DNA of 64,000 nucleotides, taken from assembly GCF_003144395.1 (NCBI RefSeq), contig NZ_PENZ01000027.1, forward strand, positions 1-64,000, in the 5' to 3' direction. Within the stretch, counting starts at the first letter, position 1; each line of letters begins with the position of its first letter. The notes under the pieces are model-generated. The model was given only the letters and a program-made list of their open reading frames with translations, did no database searches and was not told the origin of the DNA. Positions 3,287-63,951 of the stretch are shown here, one piece after another. The stretch comes from Proteus faecis. Lineage in GTDB: Bacteria; Pseudomonadota; Gammaproteobacteria; Enterobacterales; Enterobacteriaceae. Both the position numbers and the translations under genes were made by a program.

Positions 3287-3737
3287 TTTTTATTCTCCAT
3301 TATTTTTTTCTTTTTAAATTATTTTTTCTTTTGTGTTAAATGGAGAGTTAAATAAATGCGAGATATCTCAAGAATAATGTAATTTATTGAAATTTAACAT
3401 TTAATTTATTAAATAAATAATTTAATAAATTAATATAAATATAATGAAAAATGCCATTAATTTTTAACTTGGAATAATAAAATGCAATAGTAGAAAAAAC
3501 AAAATAACCTGTTCTTACTTAGTGTTAATAACTAAAAAATAAATACTTTATAGATTAATACTCTGCTGTGTGTTTGTGGTATAAAAAAACACATGAAATT
3601 CATGATGTTAGATTTTTTTTAAAAATAAACATTGTCAATTCTAAAATATCATGATAACTCTAAAAGGACAGAGTGAAAGAAAACACAACACAATATTACA
3701 AACATACATTTTAAATAAGAAAAGAAATTATAAAACT
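3287..3737. other. AT-rich upstream region of the ilvLGMEDA operon
   Basis: About 450 bp without a gene, extremely rich in A and T. It must hold the yifB leader on one strand and the ilv promoter on the other. I could not fix an unambiguous -35/-10 pair; TTGTCA at 3632-3637 is a candidate -35 but has no well-spaced -10. E. coli has an IHF-bound AT-rich element in this position, and a similar role is plausible here. It also contains a 14-bp perfect AT palindrome (separate entry). Confidence 0.6.
3401..3433. repeat. Perfect 14-bp A/T-only inverted repeat
   Basis: TTAATTTATTAAAT (3401-3414) and its exact reverse complement (3420-3433) are separated by AAATA. Every base is A or T. It lies about 300 bp upstream of ilvL, where such DNA could melt easily under supercoiling or bind nucleoid proteins (inference). 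Confidence 0.7.
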
Positions 3738-3839
3738 ATGAATACTATCGTCCTAGTGATTAGCCTAATTATTATCAGCGTGGTGGTGATTATTAACCCA
3801 CCGTGCGGGGCTGCACTAGGACGAAGAAAGGCTAACTAA
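3738..3839 (+). CDS. ilvL: ilvGMEDA operon leader peptide
   Basis: A 33-aa leader peptide, MNTIVLVISLIIISVVV followed by a conserved NPPCGAALGRRKAN tail, clearly related to E. coli IlvL. Fifteen of 33 residues are Ile, Val or Leu (7 Ile, 5 Val, 3 Leu), including Ile-Ile-Ile and Val-Val-Val runs where a ribosome would stall when charged tRNAs are scarce. Stalling prevents formation of the terminator at 3857-3892. The start is ATG 3738; a longer in-frame ATG at 3651 has no family support. Confidence 0.95.
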   Translation: MNTIVLVISLIIISVVVIINPPCGAALGRRKAN

Positions 3840-3856
3840 ACTAGCCGGATCTCTTA

Positions 3857-3892
3857 AAAACCCCCGCACCGAAAGGCGCGGGGGTTTTTTTT
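3857..3892 (+). terminator. ilv attenuator terminator
   Basis: A GC-rich hairpin, CCCCCGC paired with GCGGGGG with inner CC/GG pairs capped by a GAAA tetraloop, flanked by AAAAA upstream and T8 downstream. It lies 17 nt after the ilvL stop and 78 nt before ilvG, as expected for translation-coupled attenuation by Ile, Val and Leu. Confidence 0.95.
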
Positions 3893-3969
3893 AAGCCTGA
3901 GTTTGAAAAAGAGATTGAGTGGAAAATAAATTTAAATTAAACAAGAAGTTAAGATGGCAGGGTGAAAGA

Positions 3970-34709: not shown

Positions 34710-34786
34710 CGGCGAGTAGCGCAGCCTGGTAGCGCAACTGGTTTGGGACCAGTGGGTCGGAGGTTCGAATCCTCTCTCGCCGACCA
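34710..34786 (+). tRNA. proM: tRNA-Pro (anticodon TGG)
   Basis: A 77-nt tRNA with acceptor CGGCGAG/CTCGCCG, anticodon loop TTTGGGA and encoded CCA. Last gene of the operon, directly before the terminator. Confidence 0.97.
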
Positions 34787-34791
34787 ATAAG

Positions 34792-34822
34792 AAAAAGCCT
34801 CGATTATGTCGAGGCTTTTTTG
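34792..34822 (+). terminator. tRNA operon terminator
   Basis: AAAAAGCCTCGA and TCGAGGCTTTTTT form a strong stem with a TTATG loop and T6 tail, 5 nt after the tRNA-Pro CCA end. Confidence 0.93.
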
Positions 34823-34860
34823 TATCTATGATTTACCTTTTTAAAACCCGCCATACTTTT

Positions 34861-34890
34861 TCTATATCTACATCTACATCTACATCTACA
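34861..34890. repeat. Hexanucleotide tandem repeat (TCTACA)
   Basis: Five consecutive 6-bp units, TCTATA followed by four exact TCTACA units, in non-coding DNA between the tRNA operon and glmZ. Copy number may vary by slippage. No known function. Confidence 0.75.
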
Positions 34891-35101
34891 ATTTGTTGCT
34901 CTTATTCATATTTTTTATTTCGTGTTATCTGTTCCAGATAAGAAAAACCAAATGGATGCTTTTAACAGAAATGTCGTCCTTGTCACTTAAGGGTTATTAA
35001 TAATTTAATTTATTGCCGAATTTTAATCTTCAAAAAAAGATGAATTGAACACATAAAATGATAGATGATAATTATATGATATATAAGTCTTTTATTTTAT
35101 T

Positions 35102-35215
35102 TGTCGGCAAATACCAACACTCGCCACTTTTGGTGTCTCCAATAGGAGACATTTAATATATTGATTTTATGGGGTTAAATATCGGGCGTGTTTTTCTTGT
35201 CGTGAAAAAGAGACG
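35102..35215 (+). promoter_or_regulatory. Three GlrR-type activator sites upstream of glmZ
   Basis: The E. coli response regulator GlrR binds TGTC-N10-GACA. Here 35134-35151 is a perfect copy (TGTCTCCAATAGGAGACA). 35102-35119 (TGTC-N10-AACA) and 35198-35215 (TGTC-N10-GACG) each differ at one base. The centres are 32 bp and 64 bp apart, close to three and six helical turns, so all sites face the same side. They lie about 200-310 bp before the glmZ start, in the range of sigma-54 enhancers. An IHF-like core TCAATAAGTTA at 35325-35335 lies between them and the promoter. Confidence 0.8.
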
Positions 35216-35384
35216 TATATCAGACCCTATATTTTCTTTTCTATTTAGCAATAGCGTGGTGGAAGCACAGGTCATCGCTTATTTATCATTGAAAATGAGT
35301 AGAGTCAGAAAGAAAAACCAAACTTCAATAAGTTAGCTTATCTTTTTTAAGGATAAAGGGGGTTTTTAATAAAAAATGGAAAAT

Positions 35385-35400
35385 TGGCACGATAAATGCT
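35385..35400 (+). promoter_or_regulatory. Sigma-54 promoter of glmZ
   Basis: TGGCACGATAAATGCT matches the sigma-54 consensus TGGCACG-N4-TTGCW with one mismatch (A for the first T of TTGC). The GG and GC dinucleotides have the required spacing. The RNA start predicted 12 nt after the GC element is exactly the first base of the conserved GlmZ sequence at 35412. No convincing sigma-70 -10 box is needed to explain the start. Confidence 0.85.
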
Positions 35401-35411
35401 TTATCTATATT

Positions 35412-35615
35412 GTAGATGCTCATTCCACTCCTTATGACAGCATATGACTTCATAAACCTAGGAATGATGCAGAGCCGATTATTCGGTGCCTACGTCCACG
35501 TTAACGATGAACACCATTCATCATCAACAGGACGAAACGTTGAGTGAGGCACCATCCGTCTGTAGACCTGATTGTATATTTATACGCCTGTATAGTTCTA
35601 TACAGGCGTTTTTTT
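35412..35615 (+). ncRNA. glmZ: Small RNA GlmZ (SraJ)
   Basis: About 204 nt, recognised by its start GTAGATGCTCATTCCA, the internal GGAATGA-GCAGAGCCG...CGGTGC hairpin, the pairing segment AACGTTGAGTGAGGCACC, and a terminal hairpin ACGCCTGTATAG/CTATACAGGCGT with T7. In E. coli GlmZ with Hfq pairs with the glmS leader to raise glucosamine-6-phosphate synthase, and RapZ-RNase E destroys it unless GlmY is present. It lies upstream of the hemY end as in E. coli. A reading frame at 35486-35692 inside it is spurious. Confidence 0.93.
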
Positions 35616-35699: not shown

Positions 35700-36017
35700 A
35701 TGATAAATAAGCAAAAAGCATATCTTGCACAAGAAAAACTCTTTCTTATAGAGAAATTTGGCCCATTATTGTTTTTTTTGATCCCTCTTATCATGCTCAT
35801 TATAGGTGGCAAATCATGGGCTAAATATGTGGCTTTCCTTTGCCAAGGGATTGCACTGATTTATATCGTAGTGTTTTATCAAGCGAGAAAGCATTACTTG
35901 TCATTTAAGCAAGAAAATGAGAAGGGAATACCCTCTCGCTTTTATCGCATTGCTTGGGTGTATATGTTTTTGACTTTATGTGTAGAAATAGTGGTGTTAT
36001 TTCAACATAGTTTTTAA
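35700..36017 (+). CDS. Small membrane protein of unknown function
   Basis: A 105-aa protein I do not recognise. Three hydrophobic segments (about residues 18-36, 43-60 and 86-103) are separated by basic stretches, and the N-terminus is charged (MINKQKAYLAQEK). GGAG lies 11 nt before ATG 35700, a slightly long spacing. It starts 85 bp after the glmZ terminator and ends at its own terminator, so it is a monocistron. E. coli has no counterpart here that I can name. Confidence 0.65.
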   Translation: MINKQKAYLAQEKLFLIEKFGPLLFFLIPLIMLIIGGKSWAKYVAFLCQGIALIYIVVFYQARKHYLSFKQENEKGIPSRFYRIAWVYMFLTLCVEIVVLFQHSF

Positions 36018-63318: not shown

Positions 63319-63394
<76 letters not shown>

Positions 63395-63430
63395 ATCTTT
63401 CTTAGACAGTGATTAGTAGTGATATGCGAC

Positions 63431-63506
<76 letters not shown>

Positions 63507-63542
63507 ATCTTTCTTAGACAGTTATTAGTAGTGTTATGCGAC

Positions 63543-63618
<76 letters not shown>

Positions 63619-63653
63619 AATCTTTTACTAGTGATTGTCAAAACTTACCAAAC

Positions 63654-63729
63654 GCGGGAATAGCTCAGTTGGTAGAGCACAACCTTGCCAAGGTTGGGGT
63701 CGCGAGTGCGAGTCTCGTTTCCCGCTCCA
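63654..63729 (+). tRNA. tRNA-Gly (GCC), copy 4, with U55-to-G change
   Basis: Identical to the other copies except for G at 63708, which is position 55 of the tRNA (T loop TGCGAGT instead of TTCGAGT). U55 is nearly invariant and becomes pseudouridine; it pairs with G18 to hold the D and T loops together. This copy may fold poorly or lack modification, so it may be a decaying gene or a sequencing error. Confidence 0.88.
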
Positions 63730-63764
63730 AATCTTTTACTAGTGATTGTCAAAACTTACCAAAC

Positions 63765-63840
<76 letters not shown>

Positions 63841-63875
63841 AATCTTTTACTAGTGATTGTCAAAACTTACCAAAT

Positions 63876-63951
<76 letters not shown>

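Follow-up and report, generated by a model that had tools for sequence, protein, structure and literature searches.

The glmZ promoter of a Proteus genome is most likely of the common enterobacterial sigma-54/GlrR type

In E. coli, the small RNA gene glmZ is transcribed from a single sigma-70 promoter (PMC4585118). A glmZ locus found in a 64-kb stretch of Proteus DNA, hereafter the window, raises the question of which sigma factor and which activator control this RNA in Proteus. A sequence-only reading of the window had proposed that GlmZ itself is under envelope-responsive GlrR control in this bacterium, and that this changes the wiring of the GlmY/GlmZ/RapZ cascade.

The gene was recognized by a full-length covariance-model match to GlmZ (RF00083, model positions 1-214) at 35412-35615 on the forward strand, which scores 146.1 bits against a curated cut-off of 60. 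A wecG-like gene (PF03808) and a tRNA-Arg/His/Leu/Pro cluster lie upstream, while an ORF of 105 codons and then a hemY-like gene (PF07219) on the opposite strand are found downstream, which we take to be the usual enterobacterial position of glmZ. The intervening ORF (35700-36017) reads by eye as a small membrane protein, and a Pfam search of it gave zero matches at an E-value of 0.001. Among the fetched loci, the closest comes from P. penneri, whose glmZ region matches at 93.4% across 650 bp. The features considered are as follows.

35102..35119, no strand assigned, predicted GlrR/QseF site 1 (distal), TGTCGGCAAATACCAACA, 1 mismatch to TGTC-N10-GACA
35134..35151, no strand assigned, predicted GlrR/QseF site 2, TGTCTCCAATAGGAGACA, 0 mismatches to TGTC-N10-GACA
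35154..35166, reverse strand, IHF-like match between sites 2 and 3, perfect WATCAANNNNTTR, moderate evidence in AT-rich DNA
35198..35215, no strand assigned, predicted GlrR/QseF site 3 (promoter-proximal), TGTCGTGAAAAAGAGACG, 1 mismatch to TGTC-N10-GACA
35323..35335, forward strand, weak IHF-like match between site 3 and the promoter, 2 mismatches
35385..35400, forward strand, sigma-54 -24/-12 promoter element TGGCACGATAAATGCT, 11 of 12 specified bases
35412..35615, forward strand, GlmZ small RNA and terminator (RF00083 match; terminator-like hairpin with its stem at 35584-35609)
35558..35575, forward strand, presumed glmS-pairing segment of GlmZ

The sequence-only reading had described one perfect and two one-mismatch TGTC-N10-GACA sites spaced by 32 and 64 bp, and these are indeed present at 35134, 35102 and 35198, their starts being about three and six helical turns apart. 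Under the looser GlrR consensus TGTN12ACA, which PMC6075780 quotes, the only deviation is one mismatch in site 3, sites 1 and 2 matching fully. Single sites with at most one mismatch are common (16 in the window vs 18.9 expected), so that a lone site carries little meaning. A cluster of three is rare: when the intergenic region (34785-35411) was shuffled 5000 times by dinucleotides, three sites were never obtained, the mean being 0.09. Furthermore, when a pair of sites 32 bp apart was searched for in the whole genome with at most two mismatches in 16 positions, it was found in two places, upstream of glmY and of glmZ, with one mismatch in each case; the reversed control pattern of this pair gave no match genome-wide. 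The longer spacings are less informative. The 63-bp pair has one match in the genome, at glmY, and its control also has one; the 64-bp pair matches glmZ (one mismatch) and two other places (two mismatches each), against four for its control. Since such pairs are no more frequent than their controls, a long pair by itself lacks specificity at this tolerance.

The conservation of the sites was examined in an alignment of ten sequences, the window and nine named Proteus records. All 24 half-site bases are invariant, including the mismatched ones, compared with 105 of 349 background positions (Fisher p = 1.9e-12, a value to be read as strong rather than exact, the positions in an alignment of related species not being independent). 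Thus, the eight half-site bases of site 1 are all invariant with its mismatched base, 17 of the 18 bases of site 3 do not vary, and the mismatched bases of sites 1 and 3 are identical in the window and the nine other records. The layout is also shared within 2 bp, with the sites at -308/-310, -276/-278 and -212/-214 and the -24/-12 element at -27. In the stretch from -28 to -12, 12 of 17 positions are invariant. For another genome of the genus (G082), outside the alignment, 332 bp were available, and these contain only two sites with at most one mismatch.

The -24/-12 element, of the TGGCACG-N4-TTGCW type, is the sole match of at least 11/12 on both strands of the 64 kb, and 3 of 5000 intergenic shuffles reach 11. 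Its position relative to the gene is characteristic: of the 216 glmZ loci surveyed, 175 score at least 9, and in all but one of these (174) the element begins at -27 or -28. The -12 element has its GC at 35398-35399 and, given the usual distance between this dinucleotide and a sigma-54-dependent start, transcription would begin at 35411-35412. The earlier proposal of a near-perfect element placed so that the RNA starts at the first base of GlmZ therefore holds at the level of sequence (11/12 and usual spacing).

An IHF-like core had also been noted upstream of glmZ, without specification of which one; the perfect match to the IHF consensus WATCAANNNNTTR is located at 35154-35166. It recurs at the same position with zero or one mismatch in all ten aligned Proteus sequences, and the match at 35323-35335 has one mismatch in all but one of the nine others. 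This pattern is weak evidence because the DNA is AT-rich: five matches with zero or one mismatch occur within 420 bp upstream of glmZ.

The same genome encodes the other members of the system. The sequence-only reading had suggested looking for glmY and its promoter, and glmY is present (RF00128, 133.2 bits, L003 1474-1635); three sites precede it at -246, -214 and -151, one of them with a mismatch, together with a sigma-54 element of 11/12. The glmZ array (-310/-278/-214) thus lies about 64 bp, or six turns, farther upstream than the glmY array, their internal spacing being nearly equal. Downstream of glmY come a histidine kinase at the qseE position, QseG (NF007997, 260.5 bits for a cut-off of 234) and GlrR (NF011695, 931.6 bits for a cut-off of 763), and then nadE and glnB, these last two identified by eye. 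The kinase is named by its position; the matches listed for it (25 of 78 for NCBIfam) are to other kinases and fall below their cut-offs. The glmY-qseE-qseG-qseF locus that goes with a GlrR/QseF target is therefore present, and the order from glmY to glnB is the one reported for P. mirabilis (PMC8745638). Matches to rapZ, rpoN and glmS were also found in the genome, and the gene before glmS reads by eye as the end of glmU.

To place this promoter among those of relatives, 225 fetched loci and the window were surveyed; one locus without a recognisable GlmZ start (L223) and nine with less than 300 bp upstream were removed, which left 216 loci. These correspond to 192 distinct regions from -300 to +20, among which near-identical relatives remain, so that counts are not independent events. 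An array was scored when a sigma-54 element of at least 9/12 at -27/-28 was accompanied by two or more sites. The named set comprises at least 115 loci, 109 of them with at least 300 bp upstream, and is a biased sample, as an exact GlmZ motif was required; two of the 109 are labelled outside Enterobacterales (Chryseobacterium and an Oscillospiraceae MAG) and are probably mislabelled or contaminated. For the second set, 112 of 198 genomes were above the glmZ cut-off, and the own genome and 110 others were used; one genome (G148) was left out, and eight genomes with one weak glmZ match were excluded. In the same way, glmY was matched in 121 of the 198 genomes, and 111 were used: the own genome and all but ten of the 120 others, nine of the ten lacking a fetched glmZ and one (G071) having two glmY copies. 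Five of these 111 were skipped in pairing.

Among the matches listed, the array is found on glmZ in 73 of the 109 named loci. It is present in all the loci of Serratia (15/15), Proteus (9/9), Kosakonia (7/7), Buttiauxella (7/7) and Salmonella (2/2), in most of those of Enterobacter (9/11), in some of those of Citrobacter (4/14) and of those labelled Escherichia (1/5), and in none of those of Klebsiella (0/5), Kluyvera (0/5) or Raoultella (0/4), the remaining groups having one to four loci each, again among the matches listed. It is also carried by the Erwinia, Prodigiosinella and Enterobacillus loci listed, one for each genus. Over both sets, a sigma-54 element with at least two sites occurs in 142 of the 192 distinct upstream regions. 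The phasing is shared as well: in the 143 regions with a sigma-54 score of at least 9 and at least two sites, 234 of 245 site spacings on glmZ are of 31-33 or 63-64 bp, and on glmY 203 of 210 are of 31-33 or 62-64 bp.

The two genes differ in how constantly they hold this arrangement. Of the 105 genomes that are informative, both promoters are kept in 86, glmZ alone is below the threshold in 18 and glmY alone in one, the GlrR array being kept on glmY in 104; a 'glmY not intact' score in G094 is a contig-end artefact and was excluded. Several of the 18 genomes retain sites or a -24/-12 element (G002 even has three perfect sites), so that not all of them are complete losses. In the named set, most loci below the threshold belong to genera close to Escherichia; an exception is a Symbiopectobacterium locus, one of the two surveyed, which lacks sites. 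The array is most simply read as an old one that glmZ lost mainly in the relatives of Escherichia, since it persists in Proteus, in Serratia and in the lone loci of Erwinia, Prodigiosinella and Enterobacillus; kinship follows general background here and not a tree. The E. coli state of glmZ thus looks derived, as judged from these sequences.

Two side observations concern the same survey. One genome (G137, glmZ in L225 and glmY in L348) is the only one of the 105 in which the array is kept on glmZ while glmY falls below the threshold. Four Citrobacter loci (L008, L048, L051 and L103) combine on glmZ a -24/-12-like element of 10-11/12 with an AATAAT -10 box, and have zero GlrR sites with at most one mismatch; from sequence, they are apparent intermediates in a change to sigma-70.

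Control of this kind has already been described in relatives. In Y. pseudotuberculosis, glmZ and glmY are transcribed from sigma-54-dependent promoters with direct binding of GlrR upstream and putative IHF sites (PMC4585118); the Proteus promoter, from a different genus, has the corresponding predicted sites, the control having been shown by experiment there and being deduced from sequence here. Sigma-54/GlrR control of glmZ in Y. pseudotuberculosis and Salmonella was reported in 2011, according to PMC4585118, PMC4098024 and PMC3844500, which all cite Gopel et al. 2011 (NAR 39:1294). The glmZ gene of Salmonella Typhimurium is listed as sigma-54/GlrR-dependent in PMC3844500 with its sigma-54 binding site, TGGCACGTTATGTGCAAT. 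As a positive control, the two Salmonella loci of the survey (L029, L078) carry this TGGCACGTTATGTGCAAT; the element is at the same offset as in Proteus, and GlrR is named as the activator of the Salmonella gene. However, Salmonella glmZ differs from that of Proteus by a fully overlapping sigma-70 promoter, whose -10 box Proteus lacks, and its two loci have two sites with at most one mismatch and not three. The glmY promoters of E. coli and P. mirabilis, with three GlrR/QseF sites, IHF and sigma-54 (PMC6075780, PMC8745638), resemble the glmZ promoter described here. For Proteus glmZ itself, a search of paper titles, in which most subscription journals are outside coverage, found none on its promoter among those listed.

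All these data make sigma-54/GlrR control of glmZ very likely in this genome, as far as sequence and conservation can indicate, and the promoter can be assigned with high confidence to the common enterobacterial sigma-54/GlrR type, which is probably ancestral. By analogy with the relatives in which the steps were tested, QseE/GlrK, with QseG, would phosphorylate QseF/GlrR, which would bind the phased sites, all three located some 200-310 bp upstream of glmZ. IHF could bend the DNA between these sites and the promoter. GlrR would then open the complex of sigma-54 with RNA polymerase at 35385-35400, and GlmZ would be transcribed from 35412. GlmZ would activate glmS, and GlmY, made from a similar promoter, would protect GlmZ from RapZ, so that GlmY and GlmZ of Proteus would both answer to one two-component system. 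The presumed pairing segment of GlmZ forms a predicted duplex of -18.1 kcal/mol with the glmS leader of the genome (-58 to -40), which is not significant, 85 of 1000 shuffled leaders being equally strong, and 78 of 500 when a longer piece of GlmZ is used. The term 'envelope-responsive' derives from work on QseE/QseG/QseF in E. coli and not from the sequence analysed here.

It should be emphasized that this architecture does not guarantee a net dependence on rpoN, as exemplified by Salmonella glmZ. In Salmonella arrays, glmZ is not up-regulated by sigma-54 (wild type/rpoN ratio of 1.1), and a glmZ reporter is equally or more active in the absence of rpoN, which was ascribed to an overlapping sigma-70 promoter (PMC3844500). 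In Proteus too, GlmZ could be mostly constitutive and merely modulated by GlrR. Dual sigma-70/sigma-54 promoters were reported for both glmZ and glmY of Salmonella (PMC3844500), an overlapping one is marked on glmY of P. mirabilis (PMC8745638), and a NATAAT -10 box at -17 to -4 is found in 65 of the 143 regions with a sigma-54 element and sites, in both Salmonella ones, in 8 of the 11 regions with a sigma-54 element and fewer sites and in all 38 with a sigma-54 score below 9. However, this box is present in none of the 15 Serratia regions and in none of the ten Proteus sequences (the window and nine named records), so that a Salmonella-type -10 box giving the same start was not found here by this narrow test. 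A poorer sigma-70-like sequence, TTGGCA-16-TATATT (10/12), does overlap the promoter at 35384-35411, in a region whose promoter-like matches are no more numerous than by chance (3 vs 4.1 expected). Its TATATT reaches -1, which is too close to the start for an overlapping promoter of the known kind, and the RNA would begin several bases downstream of 35412; moreover, some Proteus sequences, P. mirabilis and P. hauseri included, lack this TATATT at the corresponding place, and the motif thus varies in the genus. A dual promoter is hence unlikely here, and the Proteus promoter seems, from its sequence, to be sigma-54-only.

The array could also be a visible relic of a GlrR control that is no longer active on glmZ in this lineage, two of the three sites having one mismatch and apparent relics being seen elsewhere, e.g., in the Citrobacter loci where a -24/-12-like element stands without sites. 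This is quite improbable: a relic should drift, whereas half-sites and mismatches alike are invariant in ten Proteus sequences in which much of the background has drifted. Even less credible is the recent acquisition of a GlrR promoter that would have rewired GlmZ in this bacterium, which was the sense of the sequence-only reading. It agrees with the orthologous glmZ of E. coli, of which the two surveyed records (L096, L107) have neither a GlrR site with at most one mismatch nor a -24/-12 element at -27. It is contradicted by the distribution of the array, which, among the matches listed, is found throughout Serratia and Proteus, in Erwinia, Prodigiosinella and Enterobacillus and in many Enterobacteriaceae, the named loci below the threshold being mostly in genera near Escherichia; the spacings on glmZ are also the same as on glmY. 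The claim of GlrR control is thus retained on the basis of sequence and conservation, but not that of a new wiring, since the array is widespread and such control has been in print since 2011. The direction of the proposed change is even reversed: with an array on 73 of 109 named loci among the matches listed, it is the sigma-70-only glmZ of E. coli that is the exception.

This suggests that the textbook picture from E. coli, with a constitutive glmZ and glmY alone regulated, corresponds to a derived state. If so, conclusions on the control of envelope precursors drawn from E. coli should not be transferred unchecked to Proteus, Serratia and others. As a principle, sigma-54/GlrR control of glmZ brings little novelty, having been published since 2011. 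In P. mirabilis, glmY is QseF-dependent, and qseF and glmY mutants have a swarming defect that was explained via GlmY, which is predicted to pair with the cheA leader (PMC8745638). Apart from its references, the text of this article mentions GlmZ a single time, in a sentence on other work, and RapZ not at all. GlmZ is therefore an unexamined candidate for a second QseF target in a genus where QseF is linked to swarming, and is worth considering when P. mirabilis qseF phenotypes are interpreted. A more tentative proposal, plausible and short of probable, is that Proteus GlmZ is an obligate sigma-54/QseF output without sigma-70 back-up, QseEF switching the base-pairing RNA and its decoy together, and that the swarming defect of P. 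mirabilis may partly reflect loss of GlmZ.

Some minor observations can be added. A distant search of a phage collection for GlmZ gave three records, all labelled Salmonella, which cover part of the RNA. At 3726-3955, the window holds a match to Rev39_5p_UTR (RF02744; 94.2 bits, the cut-off being 88). This family is described as a 5' UTR of soft-rot Enterobacteriaceae and is met here in Proteus. Close to the end of the window (63319-63948), six tRNA genes are arranged in tandem; five of them score identically (69.9 bits) and resemble recent copies.
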